Positions 749 to 37,370 of a DNA stretch of 37,678 bases are shown one piece after another. The position numbers and the translations under genes were made by a program. This DNA is from Oceanidesulfovibrio indonesiensis. Its GTDB lineage: Bacteria > Desulfobacterota > Desulfovibrionia > Desulfovibrionales > Desulfovibrionaceae. The first letter of the stretch is position 1; each line of letters starts with the position of its first letter. Below the pieces are notes generated by a model that was not told the origin of the DNA, ran no database searches, and saw only the letters and a program-made list of their open reading frames with translations. The stretch is taken from positions 1-37,678 of the forward strand of contig NZ_QMIE01000022.1 of the NCBI RefSeq assembly GCF_007625075.1, in the 5' to 3' direction.

Positions 749-1129
749 ATGGCTTCTATTAACGTGCTCTTGGTCGACGACGAAACAGAGTTCCTTGAGC
801 TCATGAGTAAGCGTTTGAGTAAGCGAAACGTGAACCTCGTCACTGCGGAAAGTGGCGAGCAAGCGCTGGAAATTTTACGGGCTAAGAGTTTCGATGTCGT
901 TGTCCTGGACGTCAAAATGCCGGGCATGAGCGGCATCGACGTCCTGCGAGAAATTCGGCGTTCAAAGCCGGATGTTGTGGCCGTTATGCTCACAGGCCAT
1001 GCCGATCTCGATTACGTAGAGGAAGGGTTGGCTCTCGGGGCCTTTGACTATCTTATCAAGCCGGTAGCCTTCGACGAACTCTTTGCCAAAATCACAGATG
1101 CTTGGCGCAAGCGGCGCAACGAGTTTTGA
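749..1129 (+). CDS. Single-domain response regulator (CheY-like receiver)
   Basis: This is a 126-residue protein made only of a receiver domain. The acidic pair Asp10-Asp11, the phospho-acceptor Asp54, Thr82 in the LTGH motif and Lys104 before Pro are all in place, so it should accept phosphate from a histidine kinase or a phospho-His protein. No DNA-binding or enzymatic output domain follows. The start has a strong AAGGAGG nine bases upstream. It is the first gene of a run in which the PEP-synthase-like gene begins 20 bases after its stop. With no output domain of its own, it probably acts by binding a partner, and the adjacent PEP-synthase-like protein or kinases are the obvious candidates (inference). 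Confidence 0.9.
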   Translation: MASINVLLVDDETEFLELMSKRLSKRNVNLVTAESGEQALEILRAKSFDVVVLDVKMPGMSGIDVLREIRRSKPDVVAVMLTGHADLDYVEEGLALGAFDYLIKPVAFDELFAKITDAWRKRRNEF

Positions 1130-1149
1130 TATCCTGCGGGGGTGAGGTC

Positions 1150-3741
1150 ATGCAGTTGCGAGGATGGCTTGAGCGGTTGTGCGCCAAGGTGAACCCGAAA
1201 AGGGAGCCCCTTGACTCAGAGGCGTTGGAAGAGTTGCGACGTAAACATAATGCGCGCTGTATTGCCTTCAAACTTCTTATCGCAGCGAACAATCAAGCAC
1301 TTGAAATCATGTCGGATATGGAGAGCGCTCAAGAGGGTGAACGACTTTTCGGCATGCATTACGTCCGCAGCCAGTGTGCGCGTGTCCTTGCAAACGTTCA
1401 TCAGATCCTTGTTCAGTTCCAGGATCTTGGAGGCCCATGTCCGGAACTGTTCGAACAGTTTTCGATCATCCAGGGCAAAATTTACAGTGAACTTGCTTCT
1501 GCCTCGCGAGCGAGCAGCGGACCGTTATTGTTGAACATCTCTGATGTCTGGCGTGAGCATGTGGACAGCGTCGGCCCCAAAGTGGCGAGTCTTGCCCACG
1601 CTGCCCGAAGGCTGAATTTGAACACTCCGGAAGGGTTTGTAGTGACTGCTCAGGCCAGCGACGCATTTCTCGGACGAGAGGAACTTGCATCATTCATAGA
1701 TGCGCGTATCCAGGCGGCCGATGTGAACCGCCCCGATGAGCTTTTCACAATGAGCTCGGCCATCCAGCAAGCCATTCTCAAATCCAATTTACCGGAGGAA
1801 GTACAGTCCCAGATAAAGGAGGCCGCAAATAAGATTCAAGCCAAATTCGGCGACAGTGTGCGCTGGGCCGTGAGAAGCAGCGCTCTTGGCGAAGACCTGC
1901 TGGAGGCTTCTTTCGCTGGTCAGTACCGCACCGTGCTCAATGTCCCAACTGAGGATATTGCAGAGAGCTGCAAGCAAGTCATCGCGAGTAAGTATGGCGT
2001 CACGGCCATAAGCTACCGGTTGGCAAAGGGCGTTGAAGAGGAAGACGCCCAAATGTGCGTAGCCTGCATGCGGATGGTAAATGCCGCTTCCGGAGGTGTC
2101 GTTTACACACAGGACCCTCTTGGAGATCATCCGGGACGGATGATCATAACGGCGGCACTCGGCCTGCCCAAGTCGGTGGTGGATGGCGAGGCGCAATCCG
2201 ACATCTTTATTCTCGACCGGCGTACCCTGGAAGTTGTTGAAAGCAATGTAGCACTGAAACGCTCAAAGCTTATCTGCGACCTGGAGAGCGGAATCCAGCA
2301 GGTGGAGATCTCCCAGGAAGAAGGGGCGAAAGCTTCCCTCGGGGAGATGGCTATCGAGCTCATCGCGAGATCTGCGCTCCGTTTGGAACAGCATTTTGGC
2401 CACCCGCAGGATGTGGAGTTCGCTTTCGACCAAGAAGGGCAGTTGTACATTCTACAAACCAGGCCTCTTCAGGTTCACGAGAAGGTTGTTGGAAATGCCC
2501 CCCAGCAAGTACATGAGGATGCGGAAGTGCTGGTTTGCGGTGGCATGACAGCGAGCCAGGGTGCGGCTGCCGGTGAAGTATTCATCCTCCGCAAAGACAT
2601 CGACGCAGTGCGTTGTCCGGACAAGGCTGTGGCAGTGACGAAAATGGCTTCGCCTAGATGGGCTCCGCTGTTGCATCGGATATCAGCTCTGGTGACTGAG
2701 CAGGGGACTGTAGCAGGTCATCTCGGAAACGTGGCCCGGGAGTTCAATGTACCAGCGATTTTTGGGTTGAATGGATGCGTCGAAAAGCTGGAGAACGTCG
2801 GGCTTGTAACTGTGGATGCTGACTCCAGAACAATTTACGCAGGCATGATTTACGAGCTGCTCCGGAAGCGGCCTCATAAGCCACGCCCCATGCTGGGTTC
2901 TTCGGTCCATGAGAGACTCGAACGGGTGATGCAACACATTGCACCGCTGAATCTGCTTGATCCCAAGGCATCGGATTTCGCTCCAGCCAATTGCAGTACG
3001 CTTCACGACATTACTCGATACTGTCATGAAAAAGCAGTAGGGGTCATGTTTTCGAGCGAAAAAGATCAATATGGTTTGCATCAGTTGAGCAAGCAACTTT
3101 TTCACAAAGTCCCTATGCAGTACTGGGTGATCGATCTGGGCTGCGGGACAACTGGAGAGGATAGAGGTAAATTCATTCTTCTTGAAGACATATTGAGCAG
3201 GCCCATGCTGTGCATTTGGGAGGGCATGACAGCGAAACCGATGGAGTCCGCTCCAATTGACATGAAAGGATTCATGTCTGTGCTGACAGAGGCGGCTACT
3301 AACCCGAACCTGGAAGCTGCATCTGAGTCGGGATTTATGATGCGCAACTATTTCATGGTTTCCGATGAATTCTGCAACCTCCAGTCACGTTTCGGATTCC
3401 ATTTCTGCACAGTGGAATCCTGCATGGGAGATATTGCTGCTGAAAATTACGCGGCCTTCCAATTTAAAGGTGGAGCTGCAGACATGCGGCGGCGCGTACT
3501 GCGTGCTGAAATGATACGCGATATTCTGGAGGAGTTCGATTTTCGTACGGAGGTGAAACAGGACGCCCTCTTTGCACGGATCGAAGGTTTAGACAAAGAA
3601 GCCACCGGGAAGAGGCTCAAAATATTGGGATATATGATTATACATACACGACAGCTGGACATGGTTATGGCGAACGCAACTGTAGCTGCATCAAAAAAAG
3701 AATCCATGCTACAGGATGTTTACAAGATGCTCGAAAAGTAA
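1150..3741 (+). CDS. PEP-synthase-like protein with non-standard C-terminal domain
   Basis: This 863-residue protein has three parts. An N-terminal helical segment (about 1-125) is followed by the ATP-binding domain of PEP synthase / pyruvate phosphate dikinase (about 130-440), with a VGPK loop, an RSSALGED motif and a QDVEFAF...LQTRPL motif. A phospho-histidine swivel domain (about 460-580) has the likely catalytic His524 in a GTVAGHLGNVARE context. The PEP/pyruvate TIM barrel expected next is absent. In its place are about 280 residues shared with the second copy at 8065, including an FKGGAAD motif. I chose ATG 1150 because a GGGGGTGAGG ribosome site precedes it; the longer frame would need TTG 1102 inside the preceding gene. 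It probably autophosphorylates with ATP; its acceptor is unknown. Membership of the superfamily is clear; true PEP synthase activity is doubtful. Confidence 0.85.
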   Translation: MQLRGWLERLCAKVNPKREPLDSEALEELRRKHNARCIAFKLLIAANNQALEIMSDMESAQEGERLFGMHYVRSQCARVLANVHQILVQFQDLGGPCPELFEQFSIIQGKIYSELASASRASSGPLLLNISDVWREHVDSVGPKVASLAHAARRLNLNTPEGFVVTAQASDAFLGREELASFIDARIQAADVNRPDELFTMSSAIQQAILKSNLPEEVQSQIKEAANKIQAKFGDSVRWAVRSSALGEDLLEASFAGQYRTVLNVPTEDIAESCKQVIASKYGVTAISYRLAKGVEEEDAQMCVACMRMVNAASGGVVYTQDPLGDHPGRMIITAALGLPKSVVDGEAQSDIFILDRRTLEVVESNVALKRSKLICDLESGIQQVEISQEEGAKASLGEMAIELIARSALRLEQHFGHPQDVEFAFDQEGQLYILQTRPLQVHEKVVGNAPQQVHEDAEVLVCGGMTASQGAAAGEVFILRKDIDAVRCPDKAVAVTKMASPRWAPLLHRISALVTEQGTVAGHLGNVAREFNVPAIFGLNGCVEKLENVGLVTVDADSRTIYAGMIYELLRKRPHKPRPMLGSSVHERLERVMQHIAPLNLLDPKASDFAPANCSTLHDITRYCHEKAVGVMFSSEKDQYGLHQLSKQLFHKVPMQYWVIDLGCGTTGEDRGKFILLEDILSRPMLCIWEGMTAKPMESAPIDMKGFMSVLTEAATNPNLEAASESGFMMRNYFMVSDEFCNLQSRFGFHFCTVESCMGDIAAENYAAFQFKGGAADMRRRVLRAEMIRDILEEFDFRTEVKQDALFARIEGLDKEATGKRLKILGYMIIHTRQLDMVMANATVAASKKESMLQDVYKMLEK

Positions 3742-3743
3742 GA

Positions 3744-5408
3744 ATGGGACCAGCAATGGTGAAGCGTAACTACAGAAGGCTGCGTTGGAGGCTTATTTGG
3801 GCAATCATCGGGTTTTCCATGATTCCTTTAATGGGCCTTGGCTTCGTGCTTTTCGATAAGTTCGACAGTGCGTACGAAGAAAAGGCCGAGCAAAATCTCA
3901 GAACTATAGTCGATAATAAGCAGCGGGCCATTGACTTGTTTCTTAAAGAAAAGGTTTCTTTCCTTAAAACTCTTGCATATAGCTATACATTCGAAGAGAT
4001 AAATGATGACCAAGCTATTGCGGGATTGTTCAGAAATATTGAATCGAGTTCTAATGATTTTGTTGATATAGGGGTGATAGATTCCAGGGGGATGCATGTT
4101 GCTTACAGAGGGCCATATAGTGTTGCCGACGTGGATTATAGTGAAGAGCGTTGGTTTTTCGAGGTCATGTTGCGAGGTGTCTATGTAAGTGACGTGTTTA
4201 TGGGGTTTAGGAATTTCCCTCACTTCATTATTGCCGTGCAGCGCAAAGAAGGCGATAAATTTTGGATACTTCGAGCCACAGTGAATCTGGAGGTTTTCAA
4301 TTCACTTGTTCAGACTGTTCAGATCGGCAAGCGTGGCGATGCATACCTTGTAAACAAGGACAATATTCTTCAAACACCATCACGTTTTCGGACTCCAGTG
4401 TTGACTGAGAGCCGAATGCCGGAAATGCCGACACGTTTTACTGGCGTTGCAGTCGAAAAACGCATGATCGACTCCGAACCCAGACTCCTGGGAATGACAT
4501 GGCTCAGTACCGTTGACTGGCTGCTTGTGATCAGTGAGGACCCGCGTGAAGAGATGAGTCCAATGATCAAAGCGGAGTTCAATGCTTTTCTGGTTTTCCT
4601 TGCAGGTACGATAATAGTGTGCATTGGCGCAGTGTTTGTGACCAACCGTATGGTGCTAAAGATCATGGCGGCGGACAAAGAAGCGGCGGCTCTTGATGCT
4701 TCACTTCTCCAGTCCAACAAAATGGCTGCGTTGGGCAAGATGGCCGCAGGAATTGCACATGAAGTAAATAACCCTCTTACACTAATTCGCGAGAGTGCGG
4801 GGTGGGTTAAAGATTTAGTTGCAGAAGAAGATCCTGCAGCCATAAAAAACTACGACGAAATCAATCAAACATTGGACAAGATAGATCGACATGTAGAGCG
4901 CGCAAAAAGTGTGACGCACCGCATGCTCGGGTTTGGCAGGCGTATGGAGCCGCGCCAGGAAGGAGTAAATGTAAACACTATAGTCAACGAAACACTAAAA
5001 TTTCTTGAAAGTGAGGCTTTGTATCGAAATATTGAAATCGACAAGAACTTTGATCCTAACATTCCGCTTATTACCAACGACCCCATTCAAATGCAGCAGG
5101 TTTTTTTGAATGTGATAGATAATGCCATTGACGCTATCGACCACGATGGGACAATTACTTTGCGTTCTGGTGTCACAAATGAAGGAAATGAAGTTTTCGT
5201 ATCTATCTCCGACACCGGAAAAGGTATCCCCCCAGACCAGTTGGAAAAAGTGTTTGACCCGTTTTATACGACCAAAAAAGTCGGCGAGGGCACGGGGTTG
5301 GGACTGTCGATCGTATTCGGAATTCTCGAGCGACTCGGCGGGCGCATTTTTGCGGAAAGTAAGGTAGGAGAGGGTTCAACGTTCACAATAACCTTTCCGT
5401 TTGGATGA
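3744..5408 (+). CDS. Membrane sensor histidine kinase with Cache-like periplasmic domain
   Basis: The product is 554 residues long. A transmembrane helix (about 17-37) is followed by a periplasmic region of about 240 residues that looks like a double Cache ligand-binding domain, then a second helix (about 282-304). The kinase core has the H-box GIAHEVNNPL with phospho-accepting His339, an N-box (NVIDNAIDAI), and G-boxes SDTGKGIP and GTGLGLSI. There is no attached receiver. It starts two bases after the PEP-synthase-like gene, so they are almost certainly co-transcribed; ATG 3756 is an alternative start four codons in. The gene is visibly richer in A and T than genes right of 8065, which may mark transferred DNA. 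Its ligand is unknown. Confidence 0.88.
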   Translation: MGPAMVKRNYRRLRWRLIWAIIGFSMIPLMGLGFVLFDKFDSAYEEKAEQNLRTIVDNKQRAIDLFLKEKVSFLKTLAYSYTFEEINDDQAIAGLFRNIESSSNDFVDIGVIDSRGMHVAYRGPYSVADVDYSEERWFFEVMLRGVYVSDVFMGFRNFPHFIIAVQRKEGDKFWILRATVNLEVFNSLVQTVQIGKRGDAYLVNKDNILQTPSRFRTPVLTESRMPEMPTRFTGVAVEKRMIDSEPRLLGMTWLSTVDWLLVISEDPREEMSPMIKAEFNAFLVFLAGTIIVCIGAVFVTNRMVLKIMAADKEAAALDASLLQSNKMAALGKMAAGIAHEVNNPLTLIRESAGWVKDLVAEEDPAAIKNYDEINQTLDKIDRHVERAKSVTHRMLGFGRRMEPRQEGVNVNTIVNETLKFLESEALYRNIEIDKNFDPNIPLITNDPIQMQQVFLNVIDNAIDAIDHDGTITLRSGVTNEGNEVFVSISDTGKGIPPDQLEKVFDPFYTTKKVGEGTGLGLSIVFGILERLGGRIFAESKVGEGSTFTITFPFG

Positions 5409-5457
5409 GAAATCCAGCACTTCAGGAAAGCCGTGCGTCATGTGAAGGAGAACACTT

Positions 5458-5859
5458 ATGGAAGAGACCTCTCCCAAAATTCTCGTTGTCGATGATGAAG
5501 TCGATTTTCTTGAGTTATTCGTCAAGCGCTTCCAAAAACGTGGACACAACGTAGCAGCAGTCGAAAGCGGGCATGAAGCCCTCGCGTATCTGGAAGAGAA
5601 TCCCGTTGATGTCGTGGTCCTTGATGTAAAGATGCCAAGGATGAACGGTATCGAAGCCCTCAAGGAGATCAAAAAGCGTCACCCTTTGGTGGAAGTAATT
5701 ATGCTTACAGGGCACGGGTCCGTCGAGTCCGGAATCCAGGGAATTAGCCATGGCGCCTACGATTATGTGATGAAGCCGTTCAATCTGGAGGACCTCGTCT
5801 ATCGCATCGGCAAGGCTAACGAACGTAGACAGTTGCTTCTTGGTGAGTCGATAGGATGA
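5458..5859 (+). CDS. Single-domain response regulator (CheY-like receiver)
   Basis: This is a 133-residue receiver-only protein with Asp12-Asp13, phospho-acceptor Asp56, Thr84 (LTGH) and Lys106-Pro. GAAGGAG lies just before the ATG. Its stop overlaps the start of the next histidine kinase by four bases (ATGA), so the two are translationally coupled and are the likeliest cognate pair in the island. The last 20 residues form a charged helix with no separate output domain. Confidence 0.9.
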   Translation: MEETSPKILVVDDEVDFLELFVKRFQKRGHNVAAVESGHEALAYLEENPVDVVVLDVKMPRMNGIEALKEIKKRHPLVEVIMLTGHGSVESGIQGISHGAYDYVMKPFNLEDLVYRIGKANERRQLLLGESIG

Positions 5860-6872
5860 GCAGGAAATGGGCATGGGGCATACCGGGGTTGATTCATCCG
5901 GAATTATTCCTTCTTGCCTCGTTGCGCGGGGTGCTATTCCATCTGGTATTGGTGCCCCTCCTTGTGGTTTTGTCCTGCCTCATGGCTGGAGGTGGACTGA
6001 GTGCGACGACAGTCTTTTTTGGAGTTGCAGGAGGATTGGCCGTTCTTGGATCGGGGCTTATGCAACTCCATACGGCCTCGAAGGCATTGCGTCGCTCATC
6101 GATTCTCGACGAACAACTCATGCAGTCGCGCAAGATGGCGGCCATCGGCGAGATGTCCTCTGGCATAGCCCATGAGATCAATACGCCGCTGGGCGTCATT
6201 ACCCAGGAAGTCGAATGGCTCCGGCATCTTGCGCAGGAGAAGGGGATTGGAGCCGAGGAAGAGTTCAAAGACTCCCTCGATCAGATCGAAAGCCAGGTGG
6301 CACGGTGCACGGAGATCACCCACGGGATGCTCAACTTTGCCAGGGCAATGCATCTCGTTGAGCAACGTACCGACGTCAATCGTCTTGTGGAGGATATGGT
6401 TCGCTGGGTGGAGCGTGAAGCCGTGGAAAGGAACATCCATTTTGAGCGACGCTACGACGCATTGTTACCCGAGATTGGCACCGACGCCCCTATGCTGCGG
6501 CACGTGGTCCTGAACCTTTTGAACAACGCAACTCAGGCCGTGGACCACGACGGCACAGTCATTGTGACCACTGCGCGGAACGATGCCGACCATATATTAA
6601 TCCAGGTGGCGGACACTGGACCAGGGATTCCACAAGAGCATCTCGAATCGATTTTCCACCCGTTTTTTACGACGAAACCTCCAGGCAAGGGTACAGGTCT
6701 CGGTCTGTCCATTTGTCTCAGCATAGTCACCAAGCTCGGCGGCACCATCAAAGTGGAGAGCAAGCTGGGTAAAGGGGCCACATTCACCGTACGTTTGCCA
6801 TTCGGGCAGGCTCAGGCAAAAGGGCCGGAGACGAGTAAGAATGCAGAGAATCCAAAACATCTCGGCCAATGA
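5856..6872 (+). CDS. Membrane histidine kinase with short two-helix anchor
   Basis: This 338-residue kinase has two closely spaced hydrophobic segments (about 17-45 and 50-70) with almost no periplasmic loop, then a full kinase core. The H-box GIAHEINTPLGV carries His106, the N-box is NLLNNATQAV, and the G-boxes are ADTGPGIP and GTGLGLSI. Without an external domain it probably senses the membrane, a partner protein or a cytoplasmic signal. Its core is clearly similar to the kinase at 3744, which suggests duplication. It is coupled to the receiver at 5458 by the ATGA overlap. Confidence 0.88.
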   Translation: MSRKWAWGIPGLIHPELFLLASLRGVLFHLVLVPLLVVLSCLMAGGGLSATTVFFGVAGGLAVLGSGLMQLHTASKALRRSSILDEQLMQSRKMAAIGEMSSGIAHEINTPLGVITQEVEWLRHLAQEKGIGAEEEFKDSLDQIESQVARCTEITHGMLNFARAMHLVEQRTDVNRLVEDMVRWVEREAVERNIHFERRYDALLPEIGTDAPMLRHVVLNLLNNATQAVDHDGTVIVTTARNDADHILIQVADTGPGIPQEHLESIFHPFFTTKPPGKGTGLGLSICLSIVTKLGGTIKVESKLGKGATFTVRLPFGQAQAKGPETSKNAENPKHLGQ

Positions 6873-7042
6873 TGCCGAGGTTTGTATGCGCGTCAGTATT
6901 CTGCGGTTGATGTAGGTCCACAAACGCGAAGTCTGCGGCGTGAGGAGTGTGGAAGAGTTTGCGGGAGCACAAAGTCACAAATGCCTTGCTCCAGTAACTA
7001 ATCTCCAACAATAGTTGCGAATGGAGCGGATGGGAGGCTGTA

Positions 7043-7459
7043 ATGGCAAAAAGTTACCGTATATTGGTGGTGGATGACGAAGCAGTGTTCCGGAATAATC
7101 TTCTCAGAATGCTTAACGCCAAAGGTTATGAGGCTGAGGGGGCGGCGAGTGGCGAAGATGCTCTGCAGGCAGTATCGCAGGGCGATTTCGACGTGGTGCT
7201 GCTCGACCTGAAAATGCCTGGAATGTCTGGGGAAGACGTCCTGAAGGGCATCCGTGAGTCAGGCTCCGATGCCGAAATTATCGTACTCACCGGCCACGTT
7301 ACCCTGGAGGGGGGCGTTTCTCTTATCCAAGAAGGAGCATTCGACTACCAGGTCAAGCCAATCACGCAGGCTCTGCTGCTCGACAGCATCAAGCTCGCCT
7401 GCGAAGAACGTGAACTTAAACGGTTGCTCGACAGCGATGCGGCACAACCTTTGACGTAA
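7043..7459 (+). CDS. Single-domain response regulator (CheY-like receiver)
   Basis: This is a 138-residue receiver with Asp11-Asp12, phospho-acceptor Asp55 in LLDLKMPGMSG, Thr83 (LTGH) and Lys105-Pro. The upstream GGGAGG fits the ATG. A 170-base gap separates it from the kinase gene before it; I see no clear promoter or terminator there. It has no output domain; the last 25 residues extend the final helix. Confidence 0.9.
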   Translation: MAKSYRILVVDDEAVFRNNLLRMLNAKGYEAEGAASGEDALQAVSQGDFDVVLLDLKMPGMSGEDVLKGIRESGSDAEIIVLTGHVTLEGGVSLIQEGAFDYQVKPITQALLLDSIKLACEERELKRLLDSDAAQPLT

Positions 7460-7646
7460 GCGAGGACCATGAAGGACGTTGTGCCAGCTGCTTCATTTGA
7501 TGGCTATCTTCATATTACTACATCGCTAATGTCTTCTGACTACGCCAAAGTTGAAGGCCTCGTGAGGGATCTACCCGATCGTGCTCTTTGGCGGCCGTTA
7601 TTTTGCGGGTCTCAAATAGTCTTTCGAGACGTGGAGGGTCAGGATA

Positions 7647-8054
7647 ATGAAAATAGAGGTGCCAAACGTCAGGGTTCTTGTGGTGGACGATGACGAACGT
7701 TTCAGAACCAATGCAGTAAAAATTCTATCAACATTGGGATTTGCTGTGGAAGGTGCCGCAAGCGGAGCCGAGACTTTGGAACGGATCATGGGCGAGGAAT
7801 TCGACGTGGTCGTTCTTGATCAGAAAATGCCCGGCATGAGCGGTGTGGAAACGCTGGAGTCCATGCGAAAAAAGGGATGCACGGCAGAGGTGATCATCCT
7901 GACAGGACATGCTTCCGTGGATGATGCCGTTATGGGCATGAATCTCGGAGCGGCAGATTATCTCCTGAAGCCAGTCGCTTCTGAGCAGATCGCGGAGAAA
8001 ATTATTACCGCTTACGAAAGGAAAGTGGATAAAGCTCGGAAACTCGGAAAGTGA
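7647..8054 (+). CDS. Single-domain response regulator (CheY-like receiver)
   Basis: This is a 135-residue receiver with Asp14-Asp15, phospho-acceptor Asp58 (VLDQKMPGMSG), Thr86 (LTGH) and Lys108-Pro. It resembles the receiver at 7043 closely, including an EGAASG stretch, so the two look like duplicates. The 187-base gap before it holds no gene I can support. It ends 10 bases from the convergent PEP-synthase-like gene, with no terminator visible between them. Confidence 0.9.
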   Translation: MKIEVPNVRVLVVDDDERFRTNAVKILSTLGFAVEGAASGAETLERIMGEEFDVVVLDQKMPGMSGVETLESMRKKGCTAEVIILTGHASVDDAVMGMNLGAADYLLKPVASEQIAEKIITAYERKVDKARKLGK

Positions 8055-8064
8055 GACATGTCGA

Positions 8065-10647
8065 TCAGCTACGGGCGTCCGAGAGGTCATATCGTCCTGC
8101 GAGGAAGCACTCGACGGCATGTTCGACGCTCTGCTCGCTGTTCATGAGCATGTCCATCTGCCGGGTAAAAATAAGCAAGCGCCCCAAGGCGTCCAGGCGC
8201 TCTTCCGTCTCCTCCTGTTCGTATTTCTGATAGCGGGCGACCACTCGATCGCCTGTTGCTTCCACATCGAAACCTAGGTTCCCGAGAATCCGGGCAATTG
8301 CCCGTGCGCGCCGGTTGCGCCGCATTTCATCAGCGGCCCCACCCTTGAATTCGAAGTTCACATAGTTTTTGTTCACCGTAAGGCCGCAGTAGGCGTCAAT
8401 GATTCCATAATGGTAACCCACTCGCGAGCTGAAATTCACATACTTTTCCGAAATGAGCGCATAGCTGCGATCTCCGAAGCGCTCGTTCGCAAGGTTCGGT
8501 GGAGAGAGCACCTGCTGTGAGAGCACTGAAAGAAATCCTTTCAGGTGGATTGGCCTGGGTTCCCGGCTCTGCAGGCCCTCGTGCATCATTCCTTGCAGCA
8601 ATGCCCTGAAGGGAACGGAACGGATAGAATCCAGGGGGACGTTGCGATGACCGGCATACTCGGGGGCGACACCATCACCGAGATCAATAAGGTAAAGGTC
8701 AAAAGGAACGGGCGCATCAAGTCGAACTGTCAGGCTGCTTTGATGTGACGTGACGTCGTTGATGGAGAACATTTCGGCGTAGGATCGCTCGTGTGCGTAA
8801 CGCATCACATCATGCAATGTTTTGCAGTTCTCCGGTGTGAAATACTTGGATTTCGGATCAGTCAGGGTGAGCGGAACGATTAGCGCGGCAAGGCGTTGGA
8901 GTTTTTCATGGACAGGAGTTCCCTTCATTATGCTTTGTCTCGACGAGGATCCTTTCAGCAGCTCGACTACCTTGCCGGCATAGATGCGCCGCGACCACGC
9001 ATCCACGGTTACGATTTCGCCGTCCTGGAGCTTTGATGTGGCATCGTGCGTGTTGAGCAAAGCTGGCACTTTGAACTCTCGGGCAAGCGATGCCATGTGC
9101 CCGGTGACGCTTCCGGAGTCCGTGACCACGGCTGCCGAGTTCCTCATGATCACGACATATTTGGGCGATGAGTGTCTTGCAACGAGAACGGCTCCGGAAG
9201 GGAAGTCCGCGATGTCCTCTTCCCTCTCCACATGGCGCACGGGGCCGCAGCCTACTCCGGGGCAAGCAGCTTCGCCGCCCTCCAAAAGCACTTGGTAACC
9301 GGGAACTGGCTCGGCCCGCGCGATGCCTTTGGGGGGCGTCAGGTCTATCCCGAGAGGTCGAGTCTGCAAGAGAACAACTCTGCCTTTGCGATCAAATGCC
9401 CACTCGGTGTCCTGTGGACATCCATAGTGCGTTTCCAGCAAGGTCGAGAATTCAGCGAGTTGCATGATCCGGGACTCGTCAAGACATGGGGCATCGACCA
9501 GTTCCAGGGGCACCGGCCGTTCCTCCACGCCGCCTTCAGGTTTCGAAATGAGTTGGACGACTTTGTGTGATACTTCTCTGCTCAGCAGTTGAGCCGTTGC
9601 TTTGCCGACCCGGTATGTGTCAGGCGAAACCACGCCATCCACAGCGTAAGGGCCCAGCCCCCAAACGGCATTGATCAGGACGTTATCGTCCGCAGGGTTG
9701 TAGGGGTGGCGGGAATACATGACTCCGCTCGCGAGTGAATCCACCATCTCGAGACAGGCGACGCTCATGGCTGTTTCTTCTAGAGGGACGCCCTTGTACA
9801 GCCTGTATGAAATGGCCCGGGGGGTGAAAAGGCTCGCAAGGACCATGAGATAGCTTGTGAGCAGTCGTTCCCGCGTAACATTGAGGATGCTTAGGTATTG
9901 GCCGGCATAGGAGAGCTCGCTGTCCTCTCCCACGGCGCTGCTGCGCACCGCCACGCCCGATACGCCGGCTGCTTCGAAGTGCACCTCCCAGGCATGTTCG
10001 ATTTCCGCGGCCACATCTGGCGGGATGGACGCGCTGAGAATCAGGCGTTGAATATCTTCACTGCCCTGGATCATGCTCTTCGTGTCGTCCGGAATGATCT
10101 CCTGGGAAATCGACTGAATGGCATCGAGGATGTCGTTGTGCGCCAGGATATCCCTGTACGCGGCTGTCGTGATGGCAAATCCCCTGGGGACGGCAAGTTC
10201 AAGAACGGTCGACATTTCGCCGAGATTGGCGTTCTTGCCCCCGACCCAGTCGACGGAATTTTTATCGATAGAACTGTAGGGCATGACATAGGGAATGTCG
10301 CCAGCTGGGTGCTCGGGGGACACGACGTCACGGATTTGCGCGTGCAATCGGGCTGCTGTCGTTTCGAGCGCATGGTAGCGTCCCCCGGACATGCCGTTCA
10401 AGCTGGCTACGATTCGGGACCCATGGAAGGTTGCGCGGGCAGCCTGGGAACGCAGAAAAGCCGTGCCAAAAATGGTTTCCCCGGTCAACGCATCCTGCAA
10501 TTCGGCTATGATCTGCAAGAGTTCGGAATTTGATTCGAGAAGATCTCTGAAATTATTATACTTGTCCTTGAATGACTCGACAATGCGCTGCTCATCTTCC
10601 GGCGTGCCGGCCCGAAGTGAGAACAATGAACGAAATTTCTTGAACAT
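8065..10647 (-). CDS. Second PEP-synthase-like protein with the same non-standard C-terminus
   Basis: This is a paralogue of the protein at 1150, about 860 residues long. Its ATP-binding domain is nearer to the family consensus (VGGKNANLGEM, RSSAVGED, QDTEWAF...LQTRPL). The swivel domain has the likely phospho-histidine in GSVTGHMASLARE at codon 517. The TIM barrel is again missing and replaced by the shared domain (DPKSKYFTPENCKTLHD, NFEFKGGAAD). I prefer ATG 10647, which has GGTGG five bases upstream and gives an N-terminus like the paralogue; ATG 10659 would add four residues and lies four bases after the preceding stop. It forms an operon with the sigma-54-type regulator upstream and is convergent with the receivers. 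ATP-driven autophosphorylation is inferred from the motifs. Confidence 0.85.
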   Translation of the reverse strand: MFKKFRSLFSLRAGTPEDEQRIVESFKDKYNNFRDLLESNSELLQIIAELQDALTGETIFGTAFLRSQAARATFHGSRIVASLNGMSGGRYHALETTAARLHAQIRDVVSPEHPAGDIPYVMPYSSIDKNSVDWVGGKNANLGEMSTVLELAVPRGFAITTAAYRDILAHNDILDAIQSISQEIIPDDTKSMIQGSEDIQRLILSASIPPDVAAEIEHAWEVHFEAAGVSGVAVRSSAVGEDSELSYAGQYLSILNVTRERLLTSYLMVLASLFTPRAISYRLYKGVPLEETAMSVACLEMVDSLASGVMYSRHPYNPADDNVLINAVWGLGPYAVDGVVSPDTYRVGKATAQLLSREVSHKVVQLISKPEGGVEERPVPLELVDAPCLDESRIMQLAEFSTLLETHYGCPQDTEWAFDRKGRVVLLQTRPLGIDLTPPKGIARAEPVPGYQVLLEGGEAACPGVGCGPVRHVEREEDIADFPSGAVLVARHSSPKYVVIMRNSAAVVTDSGSVTGHMASLAREFKVPALLNTHDATSKLQDGEIVTVDAWSRRIYAGKVVELLKGSSSRQSIMKGTPVHEKLQRLAALIVPLTLTDPKSKYFTPENCKTLHDVMRYAHERSYAEMFSINDVTSHQSSLTVRLDAPVPFDLYLIDLGDGVAPEYAGHRNVPLDSIRSVPFRALLQGMMHEGLQSREPRPIHLKGFLSVLSQQVLSPPNLANERFGDRSYALISEKYVNFSSRVGYHYGIIDAYCGLTVNKNYVNFEFKGGAADEMRRNRRARAIARILGNLGFDVEATGDRVVARYQKYEQEETEERLDALGRLLIFTRQMDMLMNSEQSVEHAVECFLAGRYDLSDARS

Positions 10648-10663
10648 CGCTTCCACCATCGCG

Positions 10664-13270
10664 TCAGGCGCCGGTTCGGGTGTCCTTCACAACAATATAC
10701 CGTGTGGACGGTCCCCGCCCCTTTTTGAACAGCAACCCCTTGGAGACCATATCCTGCAAATCGTAGTTGGCAGTTCGTGCGGATATTTGGCTGTCCAGCA
10801 GTTCTTCATATTCGCTTCTCGTCACGCTTCCCATCTGCTGGATCCGGGGCCACGCCTTTTGTTGCCGGGGATTCAGCATTTCGTGCGTGTCTGGTAACAG
10901 CCTTACTCGCTCCGCAGGAGCGGAAGAGGCATCCTCCACGGAAGAAACAGAGGCTTCACGGCCGGGCGCAGGGTGCACTTCATACGGGGTGTCATCCTGA
11001 TGCTGCTTGAAGATATAACCGCTGTCATCCGAAGAGGTGGGGGCGCGCATGTCATTAGGTGCATCCGGGTCCAGGAGAAGCTCCTCTACCTGGATAACCT
11101 GCCCTTCGGTCATCACAGCAGCGCGGGTGATGCAATTACGCAACTCTCGAATGTTGCCGGGCCAGTTGTAGGATTTCATTCTTTCCAGCGCGCCTTTGCT
11201 CAAGGTCAGATTATCTTTGCCGGTTATACGCTCCGCCTCATGCAGAAAATGCATGGCCAGAAAAAGGAGATTCTCGCGATGCTCGCGCAGAGGCGGTGTG
11301 TGGACTGTAATGACTTTGAGGCGGAAGTAGAGGTCCTCCCGGAAAAGTTTGGCCTCGATGAGGTGGCGCAGATCGATGTTCGTGGCCGCGATGACCCGCA
11401 CATCCACTTCATGTTCCTTGTCGCTCCCGAGTGGCTTGACTTTGCGCATGGCGATAGCGCGCAGCAATGCCTGCTGTACCCGCGGTGAGGCGACCTGAAT
11501 CTCATCAAGGAACAAAGTACCGTCGTGCGCCTCGAGGAAGGCGCCCTTCCTGTCGCCCTTGGCTTCGGTGAAAGCGCCTTTCACATGGCCAAACAACGTG
11601 TCCATAAGCAGATTCTCGTCGAGCTCCCCGCAGTTGATGGAGATCAGCGGCTTGCCACGGCGGCTGCTATGGTTGTGTATGGCTTCGGCGGTGAGTTGCT
11701 TGCCGGTTCCGGTCTCGCCAACGATGAGCACGTCCACATCGACCTTGGCTGCTTTGAGTATCTCTGCGCGCAGGGTGTCCATTCGCGGGCCCAGCCCCTG
11801 AATCTCAGGCAATGGGTTCAACGCGGACGAGGACATGAGCGCCTGATAGCTTTCGTCGAACTCAATGGGCTCGCGAAGGTTTTCCGATTTGATGCGCATG
11901 TCGCGGATATGAATCTCTTCCATCTGTTTGCGCATGGTAAGGAGCATCTTGTTTATTGCATCCTGCAAGGATGTGGTTTCGTAACCGGCCCTGGAGATGC
12001 GGATCGGTTCGAGTTTCCCGGAAGCTTGAATATTTTGGACGGCTTTCGTCAGTTTGAAAATCGGTCGGGTGGCATACCTGCTCAGGAAGAAAATGACAAT
12101 GACGGCGAGCATTGAAGCGGCAAGGGTTATGAGAAACATGACATCTACGTGCTTGTATCCTGCCGCCATGGTCAGCCGGCTCCTGTCTTCGAAGGCGATT
12201 CCGTTCCAAATGACCGGAGGGCTGTCCAGGGATGGCTTGAAATACACCGGGGCAAACGCCGTACTGTGCTCCTTGTGGAAGGTGGCGCCGGGTACGTCCT
12301 CAGGATATGGAATGACCCCCTGCTTTCCTTTCTGGACCTCGGAGACCATTTTCCAGAAACGCTGGCAGTTTGAAGCGGGCCGGAAGGCGCTGTCCAAGGC
12401 GGGCATGCCCATGGTGCCGTCGCACTCCGCGCGCAGTTTGTACGTGGAAAGCTCCGGGTCCTGCTGGCCTTCGTCATCGGACTGGAAAAGTACCCAGCCA
12501 TCGGTTGTGAACACGTAGCTGAAGCGTATCTCGGAACTCCGCGCATAGGCCCACAGCGGGGATGCGGTGGAGTTGTACAGAGTCAGAATGTCGCGGATCG
12601 CCTTGGCATCGAAAGCAAGCACAAGAAAGCCGCTCAATGAACCTCCTTCCATGACAGGGGTAACCATCTGCCAGATATGGATACTGAGCCTGTTGTTGGC
12701 ATTCCGGTCGTAAGGGAATGGAAGCTGCGCCCTTTCCAGCGGAGATATCCAGACGGAACCATTCTGCAATTCCTTGGCGTGCTCATAGAACTCCATGGGG
12801 TCCGGGGAGATATCGTTGATCCTGCGAGCGGGGAGCTCAACGATGCGATCATCATGCTGGACAACGAATGAATGATGATCGCCAGTGAGCGAGATGAATG
12901 CCATGAATGGATATTGGTGACCGCCGACACGATTGATTCGCAACAGGTAATCGCGCAACGAGATGTTGTCTGCGTGACTCTGCGCGGCATAGAGAAGGTC
13001 CTGCTTGGCGTCCTCCAAAAATGCTTCAAGAGCGTGGGCTTGCCCCAGATTCTGAACCTGGATGTTTCGCTTCAGAGCGACAGCGATGAAATCCGCTGAA
13101 ATGCTGTAGGTGAAATAACCTGTTACGGCGAGCAGCAGAACCAGGGCCGGAACAAGCGTGATGAGGAGTTTGCTGGCGAGCGTTTTATAGCTGAAGCGTT
13201 GCGTCAACGGGATAAGGCTGAGCAGGCGATAATTGGTGTCGAAGAATCTCACAAAAGACTCCTTGGACAT
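10664..13270 (-). CDS. Membrane-anchored sigma-54-dependent AAA+ regulator
   Basis: The product is 868 residues long. Transmembrane helix (about 34-54), a large periplasmic sensor region (about 55-375, Cache-like), a second helix (about 377-399), HAMP-like linker, then the sigma-54 AAA+ domain (about 490-720). Walker A is GETGTGKQ (518-525) and Walker B is GTLFLDEI. The sigma-54 contact loop reads GAFTEA at 565-570 instead of the usual GAFTGA. No Fis-type helix-turn-helix is seen. Instead the last 70 residues resemble a winged helix (LNPRQQKAWPRI..., then LQDMVSKGLLFKKG). ATG 13270 has no Shine-Dalgarno; GTG 13252 has AAGGAG six bases upstream and may be the real start. It probably couples an external signal to the divergent stress-protein/exporter promoter at 13376. 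Confidence 0.88.
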   Translation of the reverse strand: MSKESFVRFFDTNYRLLSLIPLTQRFSYKTLASKLLITLVPALVLLLAVTGYFTYSISADFIAVALKRNIQVQNLGQAHALEAFLEDAKQDLLYAAQSHADNISLRDYLLRINRVGGHQYPFMAFISLTGDHHSFVVQHDDRIVELPARRINDISPDPMEFYEHAKELQNGSVWISPLERAQLPFPYDRNANNRLSIHIWQMVTPVMEGGSLSGFLVLAFDAKAIRDILTLYNSTASPLWAYARSSEIRFSYVFTTDGWVLFQSDDEGQQDPELSTYKLRAECDGTMGMPALDSAFRPASNCQRFWKMVSEVQKGKQGVIPYPEDVPGATFHKEHSTAFAPVYFKPSLDSPPVIWNGIAFEDRSRLTMAAGYKHVDVMFLITLAASMLAVIVIFFLSRYATRPIFKLTKAVQNIQASGKLEPIRISRAGYETTSLQDAINKMLLTMRKQMEEIHIRDMRIKSENLREPIEFDESYQALMSSSALNPLPEIQGLGPRMDTLRAEILKAAKVDVDVLIVGETGTGKQLTAEAIHNHSSRRGKPLISINCGELDENLLMDTLFGHVKGAFTEAKGDRKGAFLEAHDGTLFLDEIQVASPRVQQALLRAIAMRKVKPLGSDKEHEVDVRVIAATNIDLRHLIEAKLFREDLYFRLKVITVHTPPLREHRENLLFLAMHFLHEAERITGKDNLTLSKGALERMKSYNWPGNIRELRNCITRAAVMTEGQVIQVEELLLDPDAPNDMRAPTSSDDSGYIFKQHQDDTPYEVHPAPGREASVSSVEDASSAPAERVRLLPDTHEMLNPRQQKAWPRIQQMGSVTRSEYEELLDSQISARTANYDLQDMVSKGLLFKKGRGPSTRYIVVKDTRTGA

Positions 13271-13375: not shown

Positions 13376-13391
13376 TGGTATGGCAGTTGCT
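13376..13391 (+). promoter_or_regulatory. Sigma-54 promoter of the stress-protein/exporter operon
   Basis: TGGTATG, four bases, then TTGCT: GG at 13377-13378 and GC at 13389-13390 are 10 bases apart. The match to the relaxed consensus TGGYRYR-N4-TTGCW is complete. Transcription should start near 13402, 50 bases before the universal stress protein gene. The divergent neighbour encodes a sigma-54 activator, which strengthens the call. Confidence 0.7.
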
Positions 13392-13451: not shown

Positions 13452-13892
13452 ATGGTCACCAAGCAGAACGGGAAAAAGATTTTGGTGGCGATGGACAATT
13501 CGGAGTTCGCCCAGCAGGCGCTCAGCGAAGCTATTGGTTACGCCAAGTGTAGCAATGGTACGCTGAGCGTGCTGAGCGTGGCGCCGATACTCGGGGTGCT
13601 CGAAGAAATGCCCCCTGGCATCACGGACAAGCTCATCGCCGAAGCGCAAGTGGTTGTGGACAAGGCCAAGGAAACGGTGCGGAACGCCGGACTTGAACCC
13701 GACGGCACTGTTCGCCAGGGAGCCTCCCCCGCTGAGGAAATCGTGGCCTACATCCAGGAGTACGGTTTCGATCTCGTCATCGTGGGCAACAAAGGAAAAT
13801 CGAACCTGGGACGGTTTATCATGGGAAGCGTTGCCGAACGCGTCGCTGCGCACGCGCCATGTTCGGTCTGGATCGTCAAGCAACAGGATTGA
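13452..13892 (+). CDS. Universal stress protein (UspA family, ATP-binding type)
   Basis: This 146-residue protein consists of one Usp domain. It opens with the beta strand KILVAMDNSEF and closes with the nucleotide-binding motif G-x2-G-x9-G-S (GNKGKSNLGRFIMGS), marking it as an ATP-binding member. I chose ATG 13452, preceded by GGGAGTTGAGG, which gives the normal family length; an earlier in-frame start at 13233 would lie inside the divergent gene. It heads a six-gene run with the TauE-type exporter, and small Usp proteins often accompany transporters as regulators. Its partner here is not shown by the sequence. Confidence 0.9.
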   Translation: MVTKQNGKKILVAMDNSEFAQQALSEAIGYAKCSNGTLSVLSVAPILGVLEEMPPGITDKLIAEAQVVVDKAKETVRNAGLEPDGTVRQGASPAEEIVAYIQEYGFDLVIVGNKGKSNLGRFIMGSVAERVAAHAPCSVWIVKQQD

Positions 13893-13906
13893 GAGGAGAT
13901 ATCAAA

Positions 13907-14209
13907 ATGAAGGCAAAGCGTATTGGATTGTTCATCCTCGCTTTCGCGGTAATTCAGGCGCTGCTTCCTGGGTTGCTGATGGCGGCAGGAGGCCCCGCGA
14001 CCGACCTGGTCGTCGTGGCTGACACGAGGCGTCTGGATTCCGGGATACTGCTGTACTTCGCGGATCTCTACAACACGAACCCGACGCTGATGGCGATCTG
14101 GGCCGTGGTGCTTACCGCCGCATACGGGTGTTTCCTCGGCTTCCTCATGGACTTCCTCATGGCTCGGACGGGTCTTGATCTGAAGTCCCGAAAGATCGTG
14201 GAACACTAG
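13907..14209 (+). CDS. Small two-helix membrane protein, unknown function
   Basis: This is a 100-residue protein. A signal-like or membrane helix (about 7-27) is followed by an exposed segment of about 35 residues, then a second hydrophobic helix (about 61-83), and a charged tail. GAGAGGAG sits before ATG 13907. It lies 14 bases after the Usp gene and 16 before the exporter gene, so it may be an accessory subunit of the exporter (inference from position only). I do not recognise a domain. Confidence 0.75.
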   Translation: MKAKRIGLFILAFAVIQALLPGLLMAAGGPATDLVVVADTRRLDSGILLYFADLYNTNPTLMAIWAVVLTAAYGCFLGFLMDFLMARTGLDLKSRKIVEH

Positions 14210-14225
14210 GAGAGGAGATACGGAA

Positions 14226-15272
14226 ATGATGGAAAGCGCAAGCTGGCTATATATGTACATGCCCGTGGCCGGAGTCTACATCTTCTGGCCCGGCCTGGTG
14301 CTCATTGGATTCTCGGTGGGCGTCATCGGAGGCTTTTTCGGCATGGGCGGCGCCTGGATGGTGACTCCCGGATTGAACATCCTCGGCTTCCCCATGGCGT
14401 TCGCCATTGGTACGGACATCGCCCACATCGCGGGTAAGTCCATGATCTCCACGATCCGGCACTCCAAGTTCGGAAACGTGGACTATAAACTAGGCGTAGT
14501 CATGCTTGTCGGCACCATGGTGGGCATCGAGATCGGCGCCCAGCTTGTCATGATGCTCGAAAGGATGGGCATGGTCGGCGACGTCGTGCGGTGGGTCTAT
14601 GTGGCCTTCCTGGCGCTTATCGCGCTCATGGTGTTCAGCGACTACGCCAAGGCCAGGAGCAAGAAGAAGAAGGGAGAGGCCGACGGCGAGCACGGTACCG
14701 AGGGCTTTACCTGGTACAAGACTCTCCACAAGATCAAGATCCCGCCGATGATGCATTTCAAGGCATCCGGCTTCACCTGCTCCGCCTGGCTGCCTATCGT
14801 CGTCAGCCTGCTGACTGGTATCCTGGCGGGCTTCCTGGGCATCGGCGGCGGACTGCTGCGCATGCCGGCGCTCATCTACCTCATCGGCTGCCCGACCCAC
14901 ATCGCGGTTGGCACGGACCTCTTCGAGGTCATGATCTCCGGCCTTTACGGCGCCTTCACCTTCGCTCTGAAGGGCCGCATTGAGCTGGTCGCCGTGTTCG
15001 TCATGCTGACCGGCGCCGCCATCGGCGCGCAGATCGGCACCGTGGCGACCAAGTATGCCCGCGGCTACGGCATCCGTCTCATGTTCGGCGCCGCCGTGCT
15101 GTGCTGCATGATCTCCATCATCCTGAAGCAGTTTGGTTACGGAACAGCGGCAGCCGCGCTTATTTTGGGCACCATCGGCATCATCTGTCTGCAGATCATG
15201 AAGGTGATGTTCGTCGGCGCCTATCATGAGTTGCGTGACAAGAAGAACCAGCCCGCGCGCAACGCGGAATAA
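14226..15272 (+). CDS. TauE/SafE-family anion exporter (sulfite exporter type)
   Basis: This is a 348-residue integral membrane protein with about eight to nine hydrophobic helices. It shows the two-fold internal repeat of the TauE/SafE family: GGFFGMGGAWMVTPGL near residue 35 and AGFLGIGGGLLRMPAL near 205, each followed by an IGTD or VGTD motif. A charged cytoplasmic loop (KARSKKKKGEADGEH) lies between the halves. The family exports sulfite, sulfoacetate and related organosulfur anions. In a sulfate reducer, sulfite or another small oxyanion is plausible, but the substrate cannot be read from the sequence. ATG 14229 is an equally possible start. Confidence 0.88.
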   Translation: MMESASWLYMYMPVAGVYIFWPGLVLIGFSVGVIGGFFGMGGAWMVTPGLNILGFPMAFAIGTDIAHIAGKSMISTIRHSKFGNVDYKLGVVMLVGTMVGIEIGAQLVMMLERMGMVGDVVRWVYVAFLALIALMVFSDYAKARSKKKKGEADGEHGTEGFTWYKTLHKIKIPPMMHFKASGFTCSAWLPIVVSLLTGILAGFLGIGGGLLRMPALIYLIGCPTHIAVGTDLFEVMISGLYGAFTFALKGRIELVAVFVMLTGAAIGAQIGTVATKYARGYGIRLMFGAAVLCCMISIILKQFGYGTAAAALILGTIGIICLQIMKVMFVGAYHELRDKKNQPARNAE

Positions 15273-15292: not shown

Positions 15293-15628
15293 ATGCGAAT
15301 TATCAAAGCACTGGCGTTGGCTGTCATGCTGACCGCGCTCCTCCTCCCGGCGACTGCATTTGCAGCGGAAGTGGCCCAGGGAGAATGCGTGTCGTATGAC
15401 GCGGAGAACAAGATCATTGTCATCGAAGAGTATGACACAAACTTCGATCTGGAAAACCGGTATGGCCATCCAACCGGCATCATCACCGAGTTCGATGCGA
15501 CTTCCGCCAAAATTGGCATTTTGCCGGAAGAAGGGGACATCCTGCGCATCGCGTTTGTCGTCGAGGGCTCCAAAAAGATGGCTCTCAAGGTGATGAACGT
15601 GACGAAACAGGATCTCATGGCGAAGTAG
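15293..15628 (+). CDS. Small exported protein, unknown function
   Basis: This 111-residue protein has a clear signal peptide (residues 1-24, cleavage after AFA) and a mature part of about 87 residues, predicted to be mostly beta strand (CVSYDAENKIIVIEEYD, GDILRIAFVVEG). It lies 20 bases after the exporter gene with GAGGATACGACC before the ATG. It is probably periplasmic and functionally tied to the exporter. The fold is not recognised. Confidence 0.75.
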   Translation: MRIIKALALAVMLTALLLPATAFAAEVAQGECVSYDAENKIIVIEEYDTNFDLENRYGHPTGIITEFDATSAKIGILPEEGDILRIAFVVEGSKKMALKVMNVTKQDLMAK

Positions 15629-15639
15629 GACCCCGGAAT

Positions 15640-15680
15640 GGGCTGGAGTCGCCTCCTAACCCCTGGGGTGGCTCCAGCCC
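15640..15680 (+). terminator. Hairpin after the exporter gene block
   Basis: Arms GGGCTGGAGTCGCC (15640-15653) and GGTGGCTCCAGCCC (15667-15680) pair over about 12 of 14 positions. No T-run follows, so it may only slow or partly end transcription, or stabilise the 3' end of the upstream message before the last two genes. Confidence 0.5.
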
Positions 15681-15714
15681 CCTCAACCCCAAACCCTTGT
15701 GAAAGGAGTAGGCA

Positions 15715-15948
15715 ATGACCGGTTTGAATACTCGCCAGAAAATAGCGGTTCTGACAATGGACGTCCTGTTGCTCCTTGAGTTAACCTTGTGCGTCTACTT
15801 CAGCTACCAGGACAAGGCCAACATGCCGTATCTCTTCATGCGTTCATACATTCCGCTGTGTCTGGGCACGCTGATCACCTTCAAGATTCTCATCCACAAG
15901 CTGCGCACCAAGGAGATTGAATCCGAAGTTGCGTGCAGCGAAGCCTGA
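15715..15948 (+). CDS. Small two-helix membrane protein, unknown function
   Basis: This is a 77-residue protein with helices at about 11-30 and 43-60 and a charged tail. GAAAGGAG precedes the ATG at good distance. It lies between the exporter hairpin and the larger membrane protein that follows. No family is recognised. Confidence 0.7.
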   Translation: MTGLNTRQKIAVLTMDVLLLLELTLCVYFSYQDKANMPYLFMRSYIPLCLGTLITFKILIHKLRTKEIESEVACSEA

Positions 15949-20316: not shown

Positions 20317-20332
20317 TGGAACGGGTTTTGCT
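20317..20332 (+). promoter_or_regulatory. Sigma-54 promoter of the flagellar flgB operon
   Basis: TGGAACG, four bases, TTGCT: one mismatch to the sigma-54 consensus, with GG (20318-20319) and GC (20330-20331) 10 bases apart. Transcription should start near 20343, 74 bases before flgB. Sigma-54 control of early and middle flagellar operons is common in proteobacteria. Confidence 0.7.
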
Positions 20333-37021: not shown

Positions 37022-37030
37022 GGAGATTAT

Positions 37031-37116: not shown

Positions 37117-37171
37117 TATTGTTGACAAGGCTGTAGGAGGCCGAGGGCCGCAGAACTACGGCTGCGTGAAT

Positions 37172-37248: not shown

Positions 37249-37294
37249 TTCCGCCAGCCGCGCCGCTCGCCTCCTCCAGTCCGAATATAGGTAG

Positions 37295-37370
<76 letters not shown>

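Follow-up and report, generated by a model that had tools for sequence, protein, structure and literature searches.

PEP-synthase-like proteins recur beside output-less receivers, histidine kinases and a TauE/SafE permease in sulfur-respiring bacteria

Oceanidesulfovibrio indonesiensis carries, on a 37,678-nucleotide stretch of DNA (contig NZ_QMIE01000022.1, the whole of which is referred to here as the window), an island of nine genes at 749-13270 in which two proteins resembling phosphoenolpyruvate (PEP) synthase lie among parts of two-component signalling systems. These proteins and their relatives are here termed PEPS, the island copies being PEPS-A and PEPS-B. PEPS genes recur in other genomes beside single-domain receivers, histidine kinases and a TauE/SafE-type anion permease; this module is widespread in sulfur-respiring bacteria, and the window island is one form of it. 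It is tentatively proposed, as a reading that is plausible but still short of probable, that the receivers switch PEPS, which would phosphorylate an acceptor at its C-terminal domain and enable TauE/SafE transport. A first-pass annotation, made from the sequence, had read the island as four receivers without output domains, two histidine kinases, two PEP-synthase-like proteins and a sigma-54 activator, and Pfam searches bore out all nine genes. As it had also claimed, both PEPS lack the PEP/pyruvate barrel (PPDK_N and the mobile domain being the only matches in Pfam) and both keep the ATP-binding motifs and the swivel histidine, residues that proved near-invariant across the family in sets of 77 and 88 members.

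Neighbourhood and spread of PEPS

Relatives were gathered by a scan for peptides of the C-terminal domain (C-domain), which gave 299, the best 80 of which were used. The first locus set comprised 80 PEPS loci, 37 of them with 5 kb on both sides, and the second comprised 39 picked loci, mostly strong matches from different genera, of which 32 had this room. Within 5 kb, a single-domain receiver was found in 35 of the 37 loci of the first set, a kinase in 33, TauE in 30 and receiver, kinase and TauE together in 28; the corresponding counts for the 32 loci of the second set were 28, 23, 24 and 18. True PpsA loci of the same phylum served as the control (13 loci, 10 with room), and among these ten there were no single-domain receivers, no TauE and one kinase (second set versus control, p = 7e-7 for the receiver, 3e-5 for TauE and 8e-4 for the kinase). 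The real PpsA of this genome likewise has no receiver, kinase or TauE that could be seen in its 15-kb stretch. In a second phylum, presumably the Nitrospirae, 20 loci held a receiver in 13 cases, a kinase in 14 and TauE in 5. The first-pass annotation had made its link between PEPS and the two-component genes depend on the same neighbourhood being present in other genomes, and present it is, with receiver and kinase together in 33/37, 23/32 and 12/20 PEPS loci and in 0/10 PpsA loci. Sulfate reducers are rich in two-component genes, and it might be imagined on that ground that genes of such frequent kinds fall together by chance where kinases abound. This is scarcely credible, being already contradicted by the counts: PpsA loci of the same phylum have a single-domain receiver in none of ten cases, such receivers around PEPS number 4.4 per 10 kb at a distance of 2-3 kb and only 0.37 per 10 kb at 8-10 kb, and the pattern recurs in the second phylum.

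Gene order was counted for 150 distinct PEPS, many of which sit by a cut locus edge. On the strand of PEPS and up to 400 bases upstream of it, the closest recognised gene was a receiver in 45 cases and a receiver-less sigma-54 activator in 10, none being recognised in 91; a same-strand kinase came next downstream within 1200 bases in 28/150. The receivers are mostly output-less: 294 of the 380 receiver-domain frames in the loci are shorter than 190 aa and carry no kinase or sigma-54 domain, and a DNA-binding output for them was rejected on this count. The phospho-accepting aspartate is kept in 286 of these 294 single-domain receivers, and all four tested positions in 259. In the window itself, the Response_reg match fills each of the four receiver proteins (94-114 bits, Pfam), the receivers have the Asp/Thr/Lys set by sequence and the kinases have HisKA and ATPase domains, as expected of two-component systems. 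The identity between pairs of the four receivers is only 38-44%, and they are therefore not recent copies of one another. Many loci also have a membrane protein of ~230 aa between TauE and PEPS (77 frames in the loci searched), of which the copy in locus L009 gave no Pfam match.

PEPS were found in 146/395 genomes of a sample of the host phylum, in 101/149 genomes of a family sample (with up to 9 copies per genome) and in 27/100 genomes of the second phylum. The gene for dissimilatory sulfite reductase, dsrA, was found in 190/395 host-phylum genomes, namely in 139 of the 146 with PEPS versus 51 of the 249 without, and in the second phylum in 23/27 with PEPS versus 18/73 without; both comparisons are uncorrected for kinship and include some incomplete genomes. 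In this genome the C-domain occurs four times, with two copies in the window, one on contig C5 and one on contig C11. The latter two adjoin TauE, receivers and kinases, so that the genome has two further clusters of PEPS, receiver, kinase and TauE besides the window island. Another genome of this genus has three PEPS copies in a row over ~6 kb (G404:C1:2846867-2852943).

In a tree of 150 members, PEPS-B falls in a 22-tip clade (support 0.997) and PEPS-A among the rest. The tree also contains a five-member clade of the nitrate-cluster type discussed below (support 1.0) and a four-member clade of long PEPS with an extra tail (support 1.0). PEPS of 1056-1124 aa with an additional C-terminal tail were seen in L182, L185, L186 and L187, and L204, L205 and L212 have frames about as long; the tail in L185 is LamG-like by weak Pfam matches below the curated cut-offs. 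Still longer PEPS frames reach 1833 aa, the extension in L180 running antisense over other genes and that in L179 being unrecognised sequence. Natural fusions as proof of contact between receiver and PEPS were considered and rejected, the extensions in L180, L179 and L185 holding no receiver or kinase domain.

Architecture of PEPS and the domain in place of the barrel

PEPS make up a family of their own, and PEPS-A and PEPS-B have four parts in common: a helical N-terminus, a dikinase ATP domain, a swivel domain with its histidine and a C-terminal stretch of ~285 residues. In PEPS-A the N-terminus takes up residues ~1-118, followed by the PPDK_N ATP domain, the swivel with H524 and the C-domain at ~580-863. 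An AlphaFold model of PEPS-A has a mean predicted local distance difference test score (pLDDT) of 87.8; its N-terminus forms three long helices (residues 23-115), and its best matches among solved structures are PEP synthase, rifampin phosphotransferase, HpeI and pyruvate phosphate dikinase (PPDK). Of the features of a PEP synthase, PEPS have the ATP domain and the phospho-histidine swivel (PF00391), and lack the barrel and a score at the curated level: the two window copies score 321 and 356 bits against the PpsA model NF005057 (cut-off 598), where the real PpsA of this genome scores 1155.5, and 198 and 231 bits against the rifampin phosphotransferase model NF041857 (cut-off 999).

Conservation was read from two alignments. 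The first has 77 members, 73 of which came from the peptide scan for the C-domain itself; the second has 88 members that were fetched by a whole-domain search, independently of that scan. The ATP-site residues K144, R242, E248, D249, E423, Q436 and R438 are identical in 77/77 and D421 in 76/77, and each of them is kept in 85-88 of the 88; these are taken as the catalytic residues of PPDK_N. The swivel H524 is kept in 77/77 and 87/88. Because the residues of both the ATP and the swivel domains are kept, it is very probable that PEPS actively forms phospho-histidine at the expense of ATP. The N-terminus is the most variable part, with only 2/118 positions kept at 95% in the 88-member set, compared with 34/316 in the ATP domain, 10/107 in the swivel and 26/284 in the C-domain. 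It contains no conserved histidine, N47 being the sole polar residue kept in 95% of the 77-member alignment. An HPt domain, which is a helical bundle with a conserved phospho-accepting histidine, is thus matched in its helices, as modelled, and not in its histidine.

The PEP/pyruvate barrel is replaced by another domain, which is more than a simple loss. The C-domain of PEPS-A has no match in Pfam or NCBIfam at E<=1; modelled alone (pLDDT 84.7) it has no match in the PDB at E<=0.001, and its profile found no solved chain better than E 0.26. A barrel hidden by divergence is therefore not supported by the family, profile or structure searches. The best VIA-align was to red chlorophyll catabolite reductase (Z 5.5, 132 residues at 4.4 A), although a Z of ~5.5 is common, and an absent fold match is no proof of a new fold. 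As regards the fold of the RIF-binding domain of rifampin phosphotransferase, the whole PEPS-A model aligns to chains of this enzyme, and the C-domain alone has no match at E<=0.001. The ATP domain is present in all 93 C-domain frames (82 loci and the window).

Within the C-domain, D620, H626 and D837 are kept in 88/88 members of the whole-domain set, H619, R623, H751 and R785 in 87/88 and D805 in 86/88, with R747 (74/88) and R834 (79/88) less fixed. In the 77-member alignment the C-domain had appeared to be the most conserved part (47/284 positions kept at 95%, against 15/107 in the swivel and 37/316 in the ATP domain), but these figures mislead because of the way in which 73 of the members were found, and the idea was rejected: in the 88-member set the C-domain is about equal to the ATP and swivel domains. 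On sequence grounds, its polar core looks like one kept as an active site or dedicated acceptor site.

A proposed mechanism and the Desulfovibrio nitrate cluster

In the mechanism that is proposed, an outside signal would be sensed by the membrane histidine kinases, which would phosphorylate the output-less receivers; these would dock on PEPS, most likely at its variable helical N-terminus, and switch it. The swivel histidine would be phosphorylated from ATP, as in PEP synthase and rifampin phosphotransferase, the swivel would deliver this phosphate to an acceptor in the C-domain, and the TauE/SafE-type permease for sulfur oxyanions would become transport-competent. The acceptor is placed at the C-domain and the docking at the N-terminus because the polar set of the former is kept, and the latter is variable and has no conserved histidine. 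We infer the ATP chemistry of PEPS, the docking site, the acceptor, the direction of the signal and the transported ion. In its sharpest form, in which PEPS is a new class of two-component output, an ATP-driven dikinase switched by output-less receivers, and the phosphorylation of a conserved acceptor by its C-domain permits or energises a secondary anion permease, the idea is doubtful.

Mutants of a related cluster bear on this mechanism. One of the further clusters of this genome (L010, G000 C11:117000-133000) has the order TauE, a 204-aa protein, a PhnD/PtxB-like protein (PF12974, 190.6 bits), histidine kinase, receiver, PEPS and dual-specificity phosphatase, which matches DVU0251 to DVU0245 of the Desulfovibrio vulgaris nitrate cluster (PMC4001038 Table 3). 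The window cluster does not have this order, and Pfam domain searches found no PhnD-like protein or phosphatase in it. In the passages of PMC4001038 covered here, isolated insertion mutants in DVU0251 (TauE), DVU0250, DVU0247 (receiver) and DVU0246 (PPDK_N and mobile domain) grew unimpaired in 100 mM nitrate and gained no help against nitrite, and the mutants of the homologous genes in G20 were highly fit in nitrate. A leaky thiosulfate transporter was proposed by the authors, who also mention that G20 mutants were mildly sick on thiosulfate, and the transporter reading is repeated in a passage of PMC9723548. In L010, L191 and L192 TauE comes first and is followed on its own strand by receiver and PEPS, and simple polarity on TauE is therefore unlikely in mutants of these two genes. 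Since the loss of either gene mimics the loss of TauE, this suggests that the receiver and the PEPS-type gene are needed for the permease to work. Together with the recurring neighbourhood, the phenotype common to receiver and PEPS-type mutants supports the functional tie between PEPS and the two-component proteins that the first-pass annotation had seen in the island.

That annotation had taken the tie to be a phosphorelay, in which PEPS would autophosphorylate with ATP and its swivel histidine would serve as phosphate donor for the receivers. Such a dikinase-fed relay would agree with the conserved neighbourhood and the near-invariant histidine, it has a precedent in VadK, a dikinase relative that is reported as a regulatory phospho-histidine protein (PMC13400623, in part), and the seeming dispensability of the nitrate-cluster kinase in D. 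vulgaris would leave room for another source of phosphate (PMC4001038, same passages). It is nonetheless improbable, and less likely than a switching of PEPS by the receivers: histidine kinases are already present in most clusters (33/37 and 23/32), the N-terminus lacks a conserved histidine and varies more than any other part, in keeping with a docking surface, phosphate on the receivers would still require an output, and both the C-domain with its acceptor-like polar set and the TauE/SafE permease would be left out of account.

The same polar set resembles a small-ligand site, and PEPS could instead be a metabolic kinase that acts on the imported anion or its product, the two-component genes regulating the pathway without touching PEPS. 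Other dikinases without the barrel act on small molecules, among them rifampin phosphotransferase (PMC4844700, in part) and HpeHI (PMC12167813, in part), and the dual-specificity phosphatase follows PEPS in 5/5 loci of the nitrate-type clade. Against this stand the single-domain receivers, which require a protein target, the place of a receiver as the nearest recognised upstream gene in 45/150 PEPS and the one phenotype of receiver and PEPS-type mutants (PMC4001038, as above), so that a small-molecule kinase is considered unlikely.

Several observations weigh against the switching of PEPS by receivers. Among the frames checked, none joins PEPS to a receiver or kinase domain. The two locus sets overlap in their source genomes and consist mostly of strong matches, and longer receiver proteins are found near PpsA in up to 3/10 control loci, with a kinase in 1/10. 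TauE is not within 5 kb in 7/37, 8/32 and, in the second phylum, 15/20 loci; all three of receiver, kinase and TauE are missing within 5 kb in L086 and L093 and within 4 kb in L186 and L187. In the nitrate cluster, according to the same part of PMC4001038, the D. vulgaris kinase DVU0248 is annotated as a pseudogene and disrupting it brings little if any benefit, and the kinase step is therefore not supported there; the DVU0245 mutant was inhibited, yet mutants of its G20 homologue were highly fit, and the DVU0250 mutant was low in the pool and resistant when isolated. At a listed length of 2235 bp, DVU0246 falls short of the PEPS in L010, L191 and L192, which have 819-839 codons, and TauE scores low in L191 (54 bits) and L192 (35 bits).

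The recurring context of PEPS, kinase, receiver and anion transporter points to a new means by which bacteria may turn uptake on or off. If the proposal is true, it would account for the target of many of the receivers that sulfate reducers have without output domains, assign a function to a domain that is conserved in two phyla and matches no family or fold, couple the spending of ATP to the control of anion uptake, with which dissimilatory sulfur metabolism begins, and make a testable pathway of the nitrate-cluster phenotype, in which souring bacteria resist nitrate. In the sharpest form of the idea, PEPS would be an ATP-fed counterpart of control in the style of the phosphotransferase system, mainly in sulfur respirers.

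Probable sigma-54 control, the window and known systems

The features of the island and of the operon directly to its right are given in the table. The start of PEPS-A is more likely ATG 1150 than TTG 1102, where the open frame begins, because it lies 20 bases past the stop of RR1 and behind a GGGGTGAGG stretch.

Table. Genes and sites of the PEPS island and the adjoining permease operon
Feature	Position	Strand	Evidence
RR1, single-domain receiver, directly 5' of PEPS-A	749..1129	+	Response_reg 111.5 bits
PEPS-A	1150..3741	+	PPDK_N 290 bits, PEP-utilizers mobile domain 52 bits (Pfam); AlphaFold model
PEPS-A C-terminal domain, family-less	2881..3738	+	Pfam, NCBIfam, PDB searches
HK1, membrane dCache sensor histidine kinase	3744..5408	+	dCache, HisKA, HATPase_c; 2 predicted membrane spans
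RR2, single-domain receiver	5458..5859	+	Response_reg 113.7 bits
HK2, membrane histidine kinase; 4-base overlap with RR2	5856..6872	+	HisKA, HATPase_c
RR3, single-domain receiver	7043..7459	+	Response_reg 94.3 bits
RR4, single-domain receiver; convergent with PEPS-B	7647..8054	+	Response_reg 100.2 bits
PEPS-B, second family member	8065..10659	-	PPDK_N 306 bits, mobile domain 68 bits; 22-tip clade
Membrane-anchored sigma-54 activator, no receiver domain	10664..13270	-	Sigma54_activat 199 bits; 2 predicted membrane spans
Candidate sigma-54 -24/-12 promoter of USP-TauE operon	13376..13391	+	2 mismatches to pattern
Universal stress protein (USP)	13452..13892	+	PF00582 104.6 bits
Small membrane protein, ~100 aa	13907..14209	+	Open frame
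TauE/SafE (TSUP) anion permease, recurrent PEPS partner	14226..15272	+	PF01925 148.2 bits

The operon of USP, small membrane protein and TauE/SafE (13452-15272) is divergent from the sigma-54 activator, downstream of which PEPS-B follows after 4 bases. In this activator GAFTEA replaces GAFTGA, and its C-terminal tail, judged by eye, resembles a winged helix and not a Fis-type helix. Sites were scored against the sigma-54 -24/-12 consensus. TauE, or USP and TauE, is divergent from the activator in the window, L055, L056, L144, L184 and L189, and in these 6/6 divergent regions with room a sigma-54-like site scores 10-12 of 13, compared with 33/400 random control windows that reach >=10 and 9/400 that reach >=11; a further five regions, truncated at locus ends, had scores of 6-8 and were left out. 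Over the window as a whole the number of sites is not above chance (54 found versus a shuffle mean of 69.6), and the weight lies solely on position and recurrence. In the part of PMC4641369 covered, the sigma-54 targets of D. vulgaris include nine operons with TSUP or PSE transporters. The pair of PEPS-B and sigma-54 activator probably also drives transcription of the divergent USP-TauE operon.

That this pair is a transcription switch only, with the role of PEPS-A unrelated, is very unlikely. The closeness of the two genes and the divergent sites fit such a switch, as does a receiver-less activator within 4 kb in 10/22 members of the PEPS-B clade versus 2/128 others, in counts where many loci are cut at their edges. 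The invariant residues are, however, common to both window copies, and those same two members are the only ones outside the clade that have such an activator near.

Other features of the window lie beyond the island. At 15293-15948, 3' of TauE, are a small membrane protein and a probably secreted protein of 111 aa, which matches DUF4881 weakly and below the cut-off, and the minus strand at 16883-18382 encodes an HflX-like GTPase (GTP-bdg_N, GTP-bdg_M and MMR_HSR1 domains). A sigma-54-like site with one mismatch (20317-20332, plus strand) lies ~85 bases 5' of a flagellar rod-type gene, which is followed by FliF, FliG, FliH and a FliI-type ATPase, to ~26.5 kb. Four tRNA genes (Thr, Tyr, Gly, Thr) stand in a row at 36946-37370.

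The single parts of the module are of known kinds. PEPS share with PpsA and PPDK the ATP domain and the swivel histidine, with the main residues alike, and differ from them in the family-less domain in place of the barrel, the extra helical N-terminus and the neighbourhood. Rifampin phosphotransferase and HpeHI likewise use dikinase-type ATP chemistry without the barrel, their swivel histidine feeding another acceptor domain, but the domain order differs, the histidine domain of rifampin phosphotransferase being C-terminal, and the acceptor domain has no sequence or fold match. HpeHI is a barrel-less precedent for the phosphorylation of small molecules (PMC12167813, in part). VadK, also a barrel-less relative, is reported in the portion of PMC13400623 covered to be regulatory and to phosphorylate its own histidine; it is described there as truncated to ATP and histidine domains, to which PEPS add the large conserved C-domain and the context of receiver and permease. 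The window operon is resembled by DVU0542-0545 (USP, putative sulfate exporter, small membrane protein), which is under a two-component regulator, although the passages of PMC10102598 covered have no PEPS there and name a DNA-binding response regulator instead of a membrane activator. Among the literature matches listed, including passages of PMC10102598, PMC5840216, PMC4215793, PMC4641369 and PMC3333781, neither the combination nor the C-domain was found described, and only PMC4001038, in the parts covered, joins a PPDK-type protein, a receiver and TauE. The nitrate cluster described there (DVU0251-DVU0245, Dde_0597-0605) has, like the module, TauE, a sensor kinase, a receiver and a protein with PPDK_N and mobile domains, to which those parts of the paper assign no role; the window cluster differs from it in having four receivers, two kinases, two PEPS, a sigma-54 activator and a USP.

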